Shown piece by piece: positions 1 through 56,571 of a stretch of 64,000 nucleotides of DNA. Position numbers and translations under genes: made by a program. This stretch comes from Deltaproteobacteria bacterium (GTDB lineage: Bacteria > Desulfobacterota > Syntrophia > Syntrophales > Smithellaceae): contig JAAYDW010000037.1 in the NCBI GenBank assembly GCA_012729055.1, forward strand, positions 119,028-183,027, written 5' to 3'. Under the pieces are notes generated by a model. That model searched no databases and had not been told where the DNA came from. It was given only the letters and a program-made list of their open reading frames with translations. Position 1 is the stretch's first letter. Each line of letters starts with the position of its first letter.

Positions 1-1617
1 CAGGCCCTGCCCGCCCACGATCCCCGTGCGGTCAAGGGAACGGGTGTCACGTACTTTTCCTCGCCCATGGGCGCAGACCACACGGCCGGCCTCACCTACC
101 GCCAGCCCAAGGAAAAGAAAGACCAGATCCAGACGTCGCTGGCGACGCAGATCAAGGCGGCGGCCTGCGATGCGTTCGGTTACTGCCTCAACGCCGTTCC
201 CGGCGGCGAATCCGTTTATCCTTTCTTTGCCGGGCTCATGAACGCACGCTACGGCCTTAAGCTGACCGAAGAGGACATTCTTGCTACCGCCAAGGAAACC
301 CTGCGCAACCAGCTGGCTTTCAACGAGCAGGCGCAGTTCAGCAGGATCGATACGACGATTCCCGCCTTTTTCCGCGAGGAGCTCGTCGCGCCGACCAGTT
401 CCGTCTTCGACGTCGACGAAGCAGAAGTGCGGAATTTATGGAAGGGCCTCGACACGTTCCGGGAAAAGAAGAAAGTCTGGGAAATCCGCATCCCGCCGAT
501 GCCCGACATTCTGATGGGCGAAGGCGTCGCCCGATCCATGGGCCGGAAAATCCGCGACATGAAAGTGTCCAAGATTTTTCTGGTCACCGATCCGTTCATG
601 TTCAAAAGCGGTCGGGCCAACGAAGTCGCCGGCATTTTGAAGAAAAGCGGCATTGAAGCGGAAATTTTCGCCGAAGTCGAACCGGACCCGCCCATCGAAC
701 TCATCGAACGCGCGGGCGCCCTGTACAAGGAAACGGGCTGTAACGGCATTTTGGGGCTGGGCGGCGGCTCTTCGCTGGACACGGCCAAGACGCTGGGCCT
801 GCGCGTCACGCATCCGGGCGACATGCGCGAATACGAAGGCATCGTCGGCGGCGGCGGCAAAATCAAACCGATCTTTCCGCCGATCATCTGCCTGCCGACC
901 ACCTCCGGAACCGGCAGCGAAGTCAATCCCTGCGCCGTTTTGACGGACAAGGCCCGCGATTTGAAGTTCATTCTCATGAGCAATCACTTCATTCCGAAGC
1001 TCGCGGTGATCGATCCGCTCTTCACCAAAACCATGCCGCCGGGCCTGACCATCGAATCCGGCGTCGACGCTCTGTCGCACTGCATCGAAGGCTATGTTTC
1101 GCTTGCAACGCCTTACCATCCCTACTTCGAATCCAAGGCGCTTTACGGCATCAAACTCATCGGCCGGAGCCTCATTACCGCATACCGCGAGCCGGACAAC
1201 ATGCGCGCGCGGACCGACATGTGCATGGCGGCCCTCTGCGGCGGCCTGGCGTTTCTCAAAGGCCTGGGCCTGGGGCATGCCCTCACCCACGCCATCGGCG
1301 CGCATTATCATCTGCCGCACGGACGAGCGGCCATCTTCGGCCTGCTGGGCTTCGTGATGGCCAACAAGGAAACCTGCCGCGACGCGTTCATGGACATGGC
1401 CTACCTCATCAACCGGACGGATGACCTGGAAGGAGCGCTCCGCTGGCTTTACACAGAACTGCAAATCGACCTGCGGCTCAAATCCTACGGCATTTCCCGG
1501 GAAGCGCTCCCGGAAATCGCCTTTTACACATCGCGCGACGCGGTCAACATGGCCACGGACCCGACCGCGCCGAGCCAGTCCAGAATTCTGGAACTGCTTA
1601 CGACCATGTACGAATAG
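1..1617 (+). CDS. Aldehyde:ferredoxin oxidoreductase (C-terminal part) fused to iron-containing alcohol dehydrogenase, 5' truncated by window edge
   Basis: Frame 1 is open from base 1 (QALPAHDPRAVKGTGVTYFSSPMGADHTAGLT...), i.e. upstream of the M at 67. AOR-like C-terminus with DAFGYC (DxxG-[LY]-C type motif), followed without a stop by an Fe-ADH domain (GGGSSLDTAK, TSGTGSEV, DALSHCIEGY, GHALTHAIGAHYHLPHG). Confidence 0.85.
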   Translation, partial: QALPAHDPRAVKGTGVTYFSSPMGADHTAGLTYRQPKEKKDQIQTSLATQIKAAACDAFGYCLNAVPGGESVYPFFAGLMNARYGLKLTEEDILATAKETLRNQLAFNEQAQFSRIDTTIPAFFREELVAPTSSVFDVDEAEVRNLWKGLDTFREKKKVWEIRIPPMPDILMGEGVARSMGRKIRDMKVSKIFLVTDPFMFKSGRANEVAGILKKSGIEAEIFAEVEPDPPIELIERAGALYKETGCNGILGLGGGSSLDTAKTLGLRVTHPGDMREYEGIVGGGGKIKPIFPPIICLPTTSGTGSEVNPCAVLTDKARDLKFILMSNHFIPKLAVIDPLFTKTMPPGLTIESGVDALSHCIEGYVSLATPYHPYFESKALYGIKLIGRSLITAYREPDNMRARTDMCMAALCGGLAFLKGLGLGHALTHAIGAHYHLPHGRAAIFGLLGFVMANKETCRDAFMDMAYLINRTDDLEGALRWLYTELQIDLRLKSYGISREALPEIAFYTSRDAVNMATDPTAPSQSRILELLTTMYE

Positions 1618-1628
1618 AAAAGGAGCAA

Positions 1629-3185
1629 ATGATGACCGGAGCGGAAAGTATTCTTCAAACGGCGGCGGATGCGGGAGTGAAAATTTGTTTTGCCAATCCC
1701 GGCACGACGGAACTGGACTTTGTTGCGGCGCTCGACAAGGTTCCCCAAATCCGGCCGGTGCTGGGGCTTTTCGAGGGCGTCTGCACGGGCGCGGCCGACG
1801 GTTACGGACGCATCACTGAAAAGCCGGCGCTGACCCTTCTGCATCTGGGACCGGGATTTGCCAACGGCATCGCCAATCTGCACAACGCAAAGCGCGGCCG
1901 GACGCCGATTCTCAACCTCATCGGCGAACACACGACCTGGCTCCGTCCCCACGATCCGCACCTCAACATGGACATCGCGTCGCTTGCAGGCACCGTCTCG
2001 AACTGGCACAAGGAAGTCGCTTCGGCGGACACGGCCTCATCCGACACGGCCGAGGCTCTGGCCGCGTCTCTTTACGGCCAGGTGGCAACGCTGATCGTCC
2101 CCGCCGATCACCAGTCGGCCGCTCCGCCGACGGAAACCATTTCCCAAGTCAATTTTTCTTTTCAACCGCCGGATGAGGAAGTGCTTGCCCATGCGGTCAC
2201 GATGATCGGGGAGACCAAACGGCCCGCGCTGATTCTGGGGCACCGGGCTTTGCGCCGCGAGGGTCTCGCCGCGGCCGCGCAAATTCAGGCCAAAACCGAC
2301 TGCGCGCTTTTGATGACCACCTTCCCCGCTTACTTTGACGCGGGCGCGGGGCTGCCGATTCTCCAGCGTATTCCTTATTTTCCGGGGCAGGCCCGCAAAC
2401 TGCTCGCCAAGTACGATGCTTTCATTCTGGCGGGCGCGGCGGAGCCTTCGGCCTTTTTCGGTTACGCGGGAGGAATTACCTCCTACCTGCCGGACAAGGC
2501 GCCCTGTCTGTGCCTGGATACGCGCAGGCAAAATACGGCTGTTGTTCTCGAAGAGCTTTCTTCCCTTCTCGGGCCCGACGTCGGCCCGGCCGAACTGCGC
2601 CGCCTGCTGAGCCAGTGCGCCGTACCGGATTTGCCGGCCGGACCGCTCAACGCCCGCAACATGTGCCAGGCGATCGCCGCGCTGCAGCCGGAAGGCTGCA
2701 TCGTTGTGGAAGAAGGCATTTCCTCGGGCGCATCCTCGTACGATTACGTCCCCTATCTCAAGCCTTACTGTCAACTGACGCTCACCGGAGGCGCGATCGG
2801 CATGGGCATGCCGCTTGCGCTGGGGGCCGCGCTGGCCGCGCCGGACCGCCGGGTCATCGACATCCAGGCGGACGGGAGCGCCATGTACACACTGCAGGCG
2901 CTCTGGTCGCAGGCGCGCGAAAAGACGAACGTCGTCACCGTGATTTGCTCCAACCGCAAATATTTCACCATTGAGCTCGAAAGCCTGCGCGCCGGCAATG
3001 CCGCGCCGGGCAAAGCGGCAAAATCGCTTTTGACCCTCGATCAGCCGGCGCTGGACTGGGTAAACCTGAGCCGCGGCATGGGCGTTCCCGCAACTTCCGT
3101 GAACACCACGGAAGACTTCATCCGCGCTTTCCGCGCGGCGCTTGCGGAACCGGGATCTTATTTAATTGAGGTGGTGCTGGAGTAA
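1629..3185 (+). CDS. Thiamine pyrophosphate-dependent enzyme, acetolactate synthase / benzoylformate decarboxylase-like
   Basis: 518 aa; N-terminal FANPGTTELDFV, C-terminal TPP-binding region GGAIGMGMPLALGAALAAPDRRVIDIQADGSAMYT; 11 bp after the preceding gene. Confidence 0.85.
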   Translation: MMTGAESILQTAADAGVKICFANPGTTELDFVAALDKVPQIRPVLGLFEGVCTGAADGYGRITEKPALTLLHLGPGFANGIANLHNAKRGRTPILNLIGEHTTWLRPHDPHLNMDIASLAGTVSNWHKEVASADTASSDTAEALAASLYGQVATLIVPADHQSAAPPTETISQVNFSFQPPDEEVLAHAVTMIGETKRPALILGHRALRREGLAAAAQIQAKTDCALLMTTFPAYFDAGAGLPILQRIPYFPGQARKLLAKYDAFILAGAAEPSAFFGYAGGITSYLPDKAPCLCLDTRRQNTAVVLEELSSLLGPDVGPAELRRLLSQCAVPDLPAGPLNARNMCQAIAALQPEGCIVVEEGISSGASSYDYVPYLKPYCQLTLTGGAIGMGMPLALGAALAAPDRRVIDIQADGSAMYTLQALWSQAREKTNVVTVICSNRKYFTIELESLRAGNAAPGKAAKSLLTLDQPALDWVNLSRGMGVPATSVNTTEDFIRAFRAALAEPGSYLIEVVLE

Positions 3186-3314: not shown

Positions 3315-4392
3315 TCATGCCGGCGCTGGGGCTTTTGCGCTCAGCAGGCAGACCTGATACCAGTAGAAGAACGCCTCGGGATTGGTTTTCTTGAGCTTGT
3401 TGAGCCTGGTATCGTACGGCGCTTCGATGGTCCAGTCGCTGACCTGCTCGGCATCCGCAAAGCGCACAAGGCCCGTTTCTCCGGTTTCGATCAGCTTTGC
3501 CAGATAGGCTGCGCGGGCTGCATAGGCGATGGCCTTTTCAATATGGTAACTTTCGGAAAAGATGTAAGCCTTGATTTGCGACACACCATTTTGCAGGGCG
3601 GCAAAGTCGCCGGCACCGGCCTTCCCTCTCGTGGCTAAGCAAAGCGCGGTTTGCACAATGTCGTTCAAGACGATCTCAGTGCCGCCGGGCAGTTCGCGGT
3701 ATTTCATTTCCGTGAGCGCGATCTTTTGGAATGTGCGGGCAACGGCCGTGACCTCCCGGATCTCCGCAAACAGATTCCCGATATCGTAGAGTTGTTTGAT
3801 GATCTCCATGGCCGCGCTGAAGCCGCCCTTCCGGTAGGGGATCCCGGTGGTGTTCGGTGTAAAGGCAGTCAACTTGTCGGCCAGAATATCTTCCCTGCCC
3901 GGAAGGCTGGCCTGCACAGGCGTTCCGTCCTGTCTGGTAAAGGGCGTATCAATATCCGTTGGCACAATGGTTTGGTAGGGGGAGGCCTCCAACAGAATAT
4001 CGAGCAGGATATTGTTTTCGGAGAGGTTCGTCTGGTGCGCGGGCTTGTAAAAGAACTTGTAATGACGCTTTTCGATGCTGGAAGCGGCGCTCCCCCGCTG
4101 CTCCGCAAACCGGGTGAAGCCTTTCGCTTCGATGAATCTGGCGAAGAGCGCGTCAAAGTCCGCCTCGTCCGGGACGATGATGTCCAGGTCAATGGAGAAC
4201 CGCCTGGGCTGCCTCTGCAACAGCATGACGGCCGTGCCGCCTTTAAAGATAAAGGGCAACCCCCGATTCCGCAAGGCCCTCCAGAAGCAGCAGGGCGCGA
4301 ATGACCTTTTCGACCAGCATCTTGTCGGCCTGCCGGTTTTCGGCGGAGACCTTCTGAATCCATTCGGGCTGTAGCGAGTCTTTTGCGATCAT
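3315..4392 (-). pseudogene. AbiEii/AbiGii-type nucleotidyltransferase toxin, apparently frameshifted near its N-terminus
   Basis: ORF 3315-4274 carries FKGGTAVMLL...RFSIDLDIIVP (nucleotidyltransferase motif). The natural N-terminus (MIAKDSLQPEWIQKVSAENRQADKMLVEKVIRALLLLEGLAESG) is in another frame from ATG at 4392. The frames join at a 5-C/5-G tract at 4260-4264. Confidence 0.75.
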
Positions 4393-4411
4393 ATCCAATT
4401 ACCGGCACAAT

Positions 4412-5149
4412 TCATTCATTTTTGCCGCTTATTTGATTCAATATCCTTTGCAAAACTTCTTTTTTGTTGCGTCTTTTTGCATAGCGGAGCAGCCGGTCCG
4501 TGTTTACGGTATATTTCCCCAGCGCGTTTGCAAAGATATTGATCATCTCATGGCCCTGCAGAAAAAAGAAGGTTTCCGCGTCGGACACAAGGTCCACAAG
4601 GATCTTTTCGAGGGTCGGAAGAGTCAGGGTGTCCGCCTCCTGAAGAGGCGCTTCGCTGACCAGGGGTTTGACGACAATCGCATCCCTGCTGCCCAGGACG
4701 AAATTCTCCATGATCTTCCGCGATGGTTGTTGAAAGCTATTTGGCTGGGTCTCTTTGACAAAATGGAACACTGCATCCACGGCCTCGCGTTCCGCCTCGA
4801 CGAGCAGGAAATCATCGGCGGCCACATGCTGAAAAAACTCCTTCAAGGCGGACGTATGCCAGCAACAGAAGGTGATCAGGGGAAACTGCTTCTTTATCCG
4901 GCTGGAAATAGCCTGCTGCTTTTTCGTAAGGTGTGGTAAAAAGCAATCGGCCTGGCCTAGTGCAAACATCCCACGACCGATTCTCTTTAAGGTACCCTGC
5001 TGGACCAGCTCGTAGATCCGCCAATTGGCTGTCGTCCTTTTAATGTCGGGATCCGTTTGGGCAAAATAATCTAATACATCGCTAGTAGTAAACGACTGTT
5101 GATCTTTAAAATATTGTGATAGCGCGTCGTTATCTTTCTTGGCCCTCAT
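4412..5149 (-). CDS. AbiEi-like antitoxin / transcriptional regulator partner of the AbiEii toxin
   Basis: ORF 4412-5164, probable start MRAKKDND at 5149. N-terminal winged-helix-like region (TTSDVLDYFAQTDPDIKRTTANWRIYELVQQGTLKRIGRGMFAL), located just upstream of the toxin on the same strand. Confidence 0.7.
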   Translation of the reverse strand: MRAKKDNDALSQYFKDQQSFTTSDVLDYFAQTDPDIKRTTANWRIYELVQQGTLKRIGRGMFALGQADCFLPHLTKKQQAISSRIKKQFPLITFCCWHTSALKEFFQHVAADDFLLVEAEREAVDAVFHFVKETQPNSFQQPSRKIMENFVLGSRDAIVVKPLVSEAPLQEADTLTLPTLEKILVDLVSDAETFFFLQGHEMINIFANALGKYTVNTDRLLRYAKRRNKKEVLQRILNQISGKNE

Positions 5150-5161
5150 GCTTCCATTATG

Positions 5162-5202
5162 CAAATTATCGGCAAAAAGTCAAGATAATTGCCGATAATT
5201 TG
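5162..5202. promoter_or_regulatory. Perfect 14-bp inverted repeat, candidate operator of the AbiE-type module
   Basis: CAAATTATCGGCAA (5162-5175) and TTGCCGATAATTTG (5189-5202), 13-bp spacer, directly upstream of the probable antitoxin start. Confidence 0.6.
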
Positions 5203-5776: not shown

Positions 5777-6127
5777 TCACGCCAGGATATCCAGGAGCGT
5801 CTGCTGCATTTCAGCGGCGGTCCTGACCGTTGTCGCATTGGCTGCAAAGGCATGCGTTGTGACTCTCTGATCGACAAATGATTCGGCCAGGTCCACGTTG
5901 GAGGATTCGCTTACTTCGCCCGTCTCTGCGTTCATCCCCGGAGGCACACCGGGAAGCTTGACCTGTGAAAGCGTTACCTGGACGCCGCCGTTGGCCGCTT
6001 CCCGCAAAGCAACCCGGCTTTTTTTAAAGCCCTCCGTGTTGACATTGGCAATATTGCTGGCGTTTACAGCCATCTTGATTTCACAGGCCCGAAGACCCGA
6101 AAGCGCAATGTTCCATGCCGATGACAT
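5777..6127 (-). CDS. Short FlgC-like flagellar basal-body rod protein (orphan)
   Basis: MSSAWNIALSGLRACEIKMAVNASNIANVNTEGFKKSR (rod-protein N-motif) and a C-terminal rod-like helix; RBS GGAGG before ATG at 6127. Confidence 0.75.
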   Translation of the reverse strand: MSSAWNIALSGLRACEIKMAVNASNIANVNTEGFKKSRVALREAANGGVQVTLSQVKLPGVPPGMNAETGEVSESSNVDLAESFVDQRVTTHAFAANATTVRTAAEMQQTLLDILA

Positions 6128-6184
6128 GCATCGTCCTCCCGTATTCTTTGATATCATCGGAAAAGGGACGGAAAAACTTGAAGA

Positions 6185-55413: not shown

Positions 55414-56571
55414 ATGACCAAAATATTTTCATTTACCGGCGCAAAAAAAATTGTTTTCGGCAACGGATCGATTGCCTCTCTGGCCGCCCACGTCAAGGAT
55501 CAGCAGGCGCAACATCCGCTGATCGTAATCGATAAAAACCTGGCCCAAACGGGGCTTAAGGAAAAGATCGCGGAAATTCTCTCTTCCGCGGGCGTTAAAT
55601 TTACCGTGTATGATAAAGTGGCGCCGGAGCCGCCCATCGAACTGGCCGATGCGGGCGCGGCGCTCGCGGTCAAACGCAAATGCGACTGCGTGATCGGCGT
55701 CGGCGGTGGTTCCGCCATGGACGTAGCCAAGGCCATTGCCGTTATCGCCGTCAACAAAGGCGCGGCCGCGGATTATCTGGGCCTCAACAAGGTTCCCCGG
55801 GCCGGCCTGCCCAAAATCATGATTCCCACCACCGCCGGGACCGGCAGCGAAGTGACCTTTACTGCGGTCTTTGTGCGCAGAAATCTTCAAAAGAAGGAAG
55901 GCATGAACAGCCCGTATCTGTATCCGGAGCTCGCGCTGCTGGACCCGGAACTGACATTGTCGTTGCCGCCCGCGCCCACGGCGCAGACCGGCCTTGACGC
56001 CCTGTGCCATGCGATTGAATCCTACACGTCGATCAATTCCTCGCCGACAAGTGAAATGTTTTCGCTTGAAGCCATCGCGCTCATCGCGGAAAACCTGCGG
56101 ACCTGTGTGCATGACGGCAAAAACCTCGCCGCGCGCGAGCAGATGCTCTTGGGCAGCCTTTACGCCGGCATCGGCCTGGCCAACGCGGGCGTGACGGCCG
56201 TTCACTCCCTGTCCTATCCGCTGGGCGGGAAATTCGGCGTCGGCCACGGCCTGGCCAACACGCTTTTGCTGGCGCCCGTGATGGCGTTTAACCTGCCCGG
56301 CGCCCTGGAGAAATTCGCCGATGTCGCGGAAGCGATGGGCGAAGTCACGGACGGCCTGCCGCTTCGGGAAGCCGCCTTTCTGGCGGTGGAAGCCGTGGAG
56401 GCCCTGATTGAAGATTGCGGCATCGACGCCTCGATCAAGGACTTCGGCGTCAAGGAAACCGATTTCCCGGCGCTGGCCGATGTGGCGATGACGGTGGCCC
56501 GGCCGCTCGAAAACAATCCCCGCAAGATGACCAAAGACGACATGATCGCGATTTACGCGGAAGCTTTTTAA
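55414..56571 (+). CDS. Iron-containing alcohol dehydrogenase
   Basis: VIGVGGGSAMDVAKAIAVI; TTAGTGSEVTFTAVF; GLDALCHAIESY; HSLSYPLGGKFGVGHGLAN. Confidence 0.93.
   Translation: MTKIFSFTGAKKIVFGNGSIASLAAHVKDQQAQHPLIVIDKNLAQTGLKEKIAEILSSAGVKFTVYDKVAPEPPIELADAGAALAVKRKCDCVIGVGGGSAMDVAKAIAVIAVNKGAAADYLGLNKVPRAGLPKIMIPTTAGTGSEVTFTAVFVRRNLQKKEGMNSPYLYPELALLDPELTLSLPPAPTAQTGLDALCHAIESYTSINSSPTSEMFSLEAIALIAENLRTCVHDGKNLAAREQMLLGSLYAGIGLANAGVTAVHSLSYPLGGKFGVGHGLANTLLLAPVMAFNLPGALEKFADVAEAMGEVTDGLPLREAAFLAVEAVEALIEDCGIDASIKDFGVKETDFPALADVAMTVARPLENNPRKMTKDDMIAIYAEAF

Follow-up and report, generated by a model that had tools for sequence, protein, structure and literature searches.

Aldehyde:ferredoxin oxidoreductases (AOR) and iron-containing alcohol dehydrogenases (Fe-ADH) are enzymes of consecutive reactions and are normally separate proteins. 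The conversion between unactivated acids and alcohols by AOR and ADH is an active subject both in gas fermentation and in anaerobic alcohol oxidation, and the two partners are treated as separate enzymes that exchange a free, toxic aldehyde. In the phylum of the bacterium described here, separate Adh and Aor proteins of S. fructosivorans have been proposed to oxidize ethanol, delivering NADH and reduced ferredoxin to a confurcating hydrogenase (PMC10084766), and in the sulfate reducer Desulfofundulus kuznetsovii a neighbouring ADH/AOR pair has been held responsible for methanol oxidation (PMC10907483). In these systems the two sequential reactions are described as running oxidatively in vivo and are catalysed by two proteins from two genes, whereas the locus presented here would unite the same two reactions in one chain. 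In a 2026 classification of 4,064 AOR/WOR members by Putumbaka et al., neither an alcohol dehydrogenase nor a fusion of this kind is mentioned (PMC13328260), and a review of the AOR/WOR family is likewise silent on a fusion to an alcohol dehydrogenase (PMC12096430). No description of an AOR–alcohol dehydrogenase fusion was found in the open-access literature searched; databases may list the architecture uncommented.

The window, a stretch of 64,000 nucleotides (G000:C9:119028-183027), belongs to a methane-community bacterium related to Smithella. At positions 1-1617 of its forward strand lies a reading frame that is open from base 1, starts with QALPAHDPRAVKG and makes up the last 57% of the fusion gene. 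A preliminary description, made from these letters alone, had read them as the end of an AOR joined in frame to an Fe-ADH, with the frame already open ahead of an ATG at base 67, and the upstream sequence (locus L009) bears this out: the frame extends 1,233 bases 5' of window base 1 without a stop, and instead of the ATG at 67 one at G000:C9:117795 is the start, which gives a protein of 949 residues within a stop-to-stop frame of 961 codons. The first letters quoted in that description have to be corrected, as the visible frame begins QAL, ahead of the quoted PAH. The window part alone yields an AFOR_C match over its residues 1-129 (E=3e-13), after which Fe-ADH and ADH_Fe_C match without an intervening stop, and the AOR N-terminal domain that was to be sought upstream is present there. 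One chain, encoded in a single continuous frame, carries an AOR and a complete Fe-ADH, with the following parts.

G000:C9:117795-119027, upstream of the window (L009 coordinates): N-terminal 411 residues of the AOR domain
Window 1-444, forward strand: C-terminal part of the AOR domain, residues 412-559 of 949 (Pfam, L009 coordinates)
Window 445-474, forward strand: linker, residues 560-569, from the natural C-terminus of the AOR subfamily, where unfused relatives end, to the ADH
Window 475-1617, forward strand: Fe-ADH domain, residues 570-949, and stop codon (Pfam PF00465, PF25137)
Residues 2-203 of the 949-residue fusion: Pfam AFOR_N, E=2e-55
Residues 223-540: Pfam AFOR_C, E=2e-48
Residues 580-750: Pfam Fe-ADH (PF00465), E=8e-45
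Residues 761-947: Pfam ADH_Fe_C (PF25137), E=3e-33

The same architecture recurs elsewhere, as the preliminary description had proposed to check. When 155 Syntrophales and 395 Desulfobacterota genomes were searched, full-length fusions with 52-95% identity to the window protein were found in more than 20 Desulfobacterota genomes from several families, and the 25 full-length copies (24 loci) are, every one, 948-951 residues long. A scan of genome contigs returned four loci, all from close relatives within Smithella/Syntrophaceae, and none of the plasmid records covers 80% of the fusion query. Residues 560-578 are gapless in all compared pairs of the 25 full copies, and the linker takes 0.76 substitutions per codon versus 0.81 and 0.80 in the two catalytic domains, with 56% of the substitutions at 560-578 falling on third codon positions, a normal bias between codon positions. 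An assembly or sequencing artefact (a missing stop, as the preliminary description had itself considered) or chance read-through of two genes is thus vanishingly improbable although the window genome is a draft assembly, and on comparative grounds this reading is excluded, because over 20 other genomes of several families carry an unbroken fusion, a second independent clade exists, and the linker is constrained and gapless.

The junction falls exactly where the closest unfused AORs naturally stop, and these share the FDVD...W..L segment as their ending. A truncation of the AOR by the fusion was ruled out, the unfused relatives stopping at the same point, and the AFOR_C profile runs approximately 40 positions beyond this shared end of fused and unfused AORs. 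Internal re-initiation of a separate ADH was likewise ruled out, with no conserved start codon in the linker. Some copies are broken: that of G025 has a frame break within the AOR part and that of G118 an internal TGA. In G098 the seemingly split AOR and ADH each run to contig ends and were counted as a probable fusion. One genome carries a tandem pair of AOR–ADH fusions (L068, G043:C35:176038-181899) with 75% and 83% identity to the window protein, one copy diverging faster in its ADH half.

The AOR half can be compared with the AORs of P. furiosus (1aor, 9mqx) and C. autoethanogenum (9g7j), with which it shares the AFOR_N and AFOR_C domains, the four cluster cysteines and the Thr/Glu/His second-shell residues. 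As in Class I enzymes no small subunit stands alongside: there is no small Fe-S subunit gene among the L009 neighbours (AbfD homologue, thiolase, ThDP enzyme, acyl-CoA ligase). Only the fusion carries an in-frame C-terminal Fe-ADH, and it differs further in a histidine at the Tyr427 place and in a cysteine spacing of CX3CX3C instead of CX2CX3C, a spacing common to the unfused relatives of its AOR subfamily. Alignment to 1aor and to the other fused sequences places the [4Fe-4S] ligands at C291, C295 and C299, found 5' of the window where the remaining cluster cysteines had been expected, and at C473, within the DxxGYC motif that had rightly been taken for a cluster-ligand motif. These cysteines are nearly invariant among the fused sequences, L079 having Arg at the first position. 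Three of the four second-shell residues are kept (Thr243, Glu318, equivalent to Glu313 of PfAOR, and His438), and the fourth is changed, His417 standing at the Tyr427 place; the same Tyr to His exchange is on record for the C. formicoaceticum AOR and for WOR5/ASOR, WOR5 being also devoid of the Thr (PMC12096430). Judged from these residues, the AOR half looks catalytically complete. Two of them lie in the window.

Window 79-81, forward strand: His438, equivalent to the catalytic His448 of P. furiosus AOR (phmmer alignment to 1aor), kept in all fused sequences
Window 184-186, forward strand: Cys473 of DxxGYC, fourth [4Fe-4S] ligand (alignment to 1aor), invariant in fused sequences

With the group III Fe-ADHs, such as the NAD-dependent methanol dehydrogenases (8zwd/8zrl), Zymomonas ADH2 (3owo) and the lactaldehyde reductase FucO, the second half shares both Pfam domains, the NAD loop and the D/H/H/H metal ligands, whose roles are established for the FucO family. 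The GGGSS loop is retained, and this half, too, looks catalytically complete by its conserved residues.

Window 754-789, forward strand: GLGGGSSLDTAK, dinucleotide-binding loop of Fe-ADH, kept as GGGSx.D..K in fused sequences
Window 1066-1080, forward strand: D767 and H771, first two Fe-ADH metal ligands, by conservation in fused sequences
Window 1276-1278, forward strand: H837, third metal ligand, by conservation in fused sequences
Window 1318-1320, forward strand: H851, fourth metal ligand (LPHG), by conservation in fused sequences

It is quite improbable that one domain departs from the expected catalysis, the ADH serving as a sensor or scaffold or the AOR acting on a substrate other than an aldehyde. 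The regulatory ADH-like ErcA (NF041833) is the top NCBIfam match, but at 255.5 bits the fusion stays below the cut-off of 550; P. furiosus WOR5, which oxidises sulfonates, shares the exchange of Tyr427 for His, but so does the C. formicoaceticum AOR, and the Thr243 that WOR5 has lost is kept in the fusion, as are the metal ligands, the dinucleotide loop and the cluster ligands. A relative with 95% identity, modelled by AF2 from a 5-sequence alignment, reached a pLDDT of 34.8, too low for use.

In the tree of the AOR domain, the fused sequences fall into a main clade (27 sequences) and a second clade (G463, G264 and contig C286 of G229, from other Desulfobacterota), which are split by unfused lineages. 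The tree of the ADH domain agrees: free ADHs are the neighbours of the second clade (with G318), while the main clade attaches to different, remote ADHs. The main-clade ADH differs from the group III enzymes named above as an isolated lineage, whose nearest free ADH in the sample has 34-39% identity and which occurs, within the sample, only in the fusion or in broken copies of it. Forcing all fused sequences into one clade is rejected on both trees (p-AU 3e-69 for the AOR domain and 3e-4 for the ADH domain), and we infer from this that AOR–ADH fusions arose at least twice, the branches being long and the exact sister groups less certain than the rejection of a single origin.

The closest analogue in design is AdhE, in which an aldehyde-handling domain is likewise fused ahead of an Fe-ADH and two consecutive steps are catalysed per chain. 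The parallel drawn in the preliminary description does not extend to the chemistry: AdhE has an NAD- and CoA-dependent acylating aldehyde dehydrogenase, whereas the fusion has no CoA-acylating domain (no Aldedh among its Pfam matches, the N-terminus being AFOR_N/AFOR_C) and a predicted tungsten and iron-sulfur, ferredoxin-linked domain that would handle the free acid.

Our preferred reading, to which we assign a probability of about 0.6, is that the fusion is a bifunctional two-step oxidoreductase oxidizing an alcohol via the aldehyde to an acid destined for β-oxidation. The Fe-ADH part would convert an alcohol, possibly of medium or long chain, to the aldehyde, reducing NAD(P)+ to NAD(P)H, and the AOR domain tethered to it, of Class I type with a predicted tungsten-pterin and [4Fe-4S] cofactor, would oxidize the aldehyde to acid with reduction of ferredoxin. 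An acyl-CoA ligase would then activate the acid and an acyl-CoA dehydrogenase begin β-oxidation. Tethering would hold the reactive aldehyde scarce, and through it the very exergonic oxidation of the aldehyde would pull the unfavourable alcohol step.

The oxidative direction is favoured because a FadE5-like acyl-CoA dehydrogenase (611 residues; PDB relatives 6ijc, 8pns and FadE5 6kse) and acyl-CoA ligases co-occur with or adjoin the fusion, and the sequence from acid to aldehyde to alcohol assumed at first is not supported. In eight genomes, which belong to two genera and differ in the other neighbours, the FadE5-like gene is the next one 3' of the fusion. It is present in 24 of the 28 Syntrophales genomes that bear the fusion versus 10 of the 127 that do not (Fisher p 2e-16, uncorrected for relatedness); within the genus of the window the counts are 9/10 with and 2/10 without the fusion. 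In the window genome this acyl-CoA dehydrogenase is found on another contig, C57, and an acyl-CoA ligase is placed divergently upstream of the fusion. In the second clade, genes for DUF1302, DUF1329, YCF48-like and MMPL-type membrane proteins are conserved on the 5' side and an AMP-forming acyl-CoA ligase follows on the 3' side, the order in G264 matching by size and sequence; the cluster hints that a hydrophobic alcohol or acid is taken up or exported. As a run from DUF1302 through the MMPL exporter and the fusion to the AMP-ligase, it is seen in two families (L087 277-12583; L088 5851-17000).

Since each half reaction can run either way, acids could also be reduced at low redox potential, and gene association leaves the direction unfixed, as the same enzymes run backwards in some organisms. 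The main rival, which we consider unlikely though worth serious attention, is the same fusion operating in reverse: it would draw on reduced ferredoxin and NAD(P)H to turn acids into alcohols, an AdhE-like electron sink. Against it, the acid/aldehyde couple lies near -0.58 V, so a very reduced ferredoxin pool would be needed, and the co-occurring genes are of β-oxidation type. AOR and ADH are reported to reduce acids to alcohols in Thermoanaerobacter and Clostridium autoethanogenum (PMC10816221, PMC12727526), and S. fructosivorans has been proposed to use its reversible Aor/Adh pair both ways (PMC10084766).

A further reading starts from the immediate surroundings of the window fusion. Directly upstream lie a thiolase and a homologue of 4-hydroxybutyryl-CoA dehydratase (AbfD), the gene immediately 5' being a true AbfD homologue (1u8v, E=1e-231), and downstream follows one further gene.

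Window 1629-3185, forward strand: ThDP-dependent enzyme, acetolactate-synthase/benzoylformate-decarboxylase-like (NF005760 above cut-off)

In another genus the fusion sits among SucCD, methylmalonyl-CoA-decarboxylase-like and succinate-dehydrogenase-like genes. A specific enzyme of 4-hydroxybutyrate, succinic semialdehyde and succinate that feeds the dehydratase could be read from these contexts, but it appears improbable. The thiolase–AbfD pair says little about the substrate because genomes of the genus that lack the fusion also keep the pair side by side (G048, G041, G032 and G039, with AbfD also in G042), AbfD occurs in 68 Syntrophales genomes that have no fusion, which makes its adjacency weak evidence, and the fusion scores 230 bits against a cut-off of 500 with the NCBIfam model of 4-hydroxybutyrate dehydrogenase (NF058672). 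The ThDP gene is tied to the fusion by position only and stands beside AbfD in fusion-free genomes of the genus as well; these three neighbours, occurring also without the fusion, equally limit what the window genome says for the preferred alcohol oxidation. In the fusion-free G042 and G039, no free ADH replaces the fusion between AbfD and the ThDP gene. A two-component pair of regulators, a sensor kinase and a sigma-54-type activator, was observed at this position in fusion-free same-genus genomes (L112 8000-13000; L115 1700-7500).

Whether the fusion represents a hitherto undescribed class of bifunctional tungsten enzymes, with two or more origins, that would pass free aldehyde between ferredoxin-linked and NAD(P)-linked sites and so interconvert alcohols and unactivated carboxylic acids, is in our judgement an evenly poised question. 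That such a fusion arose twice in nature suggests a selective advantage in linking the two steps physically, and a single gene of this kind becomes a candidate for bio-alcohol work and for tests of aldehyde channelling. The 2026 classification of tungsten oxidoreductases (PMC13328260) lacks this architecture, and in Smithella-type syntrophs, in which AORs and ADHs are little known, the fusion connects an AOR with the metabolism of alcohols or fatty acids.

Further genes of the two families are present in the window genome. Unfused AOR and Fe-ADH genes lie side by side at L104 1079-5483 (G000:C51) and L103 4971-8080 (G000:C100), and on G000:C51 two Fe-ADH-like genes are consecutive, one possibly devoid of the usual metal-site residues. 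Within the window, a second, free-standing Fe-ADH, 32% identical to the fused one, occupies positions 55414-56571 on the forward strand, with a DegT-type aminotransferase-like gene approximately 20 bases 3' of it. Positions 3315-5164 on the reverse strand encode an AbiEii/AbiEi pair (PADLOC, AbiEii E=1e-108, AbiEi E=3e-83), a type IV toxin-antitoxin system of the phage-defence type. Lastly, a short flagellar rod-type protein consisting of only the Flg_bb_rod and Flg_bbr_C ends is encoded at 5777-6157 on the reverse strand, where its gene stands alone near a phosphatase-like gene.
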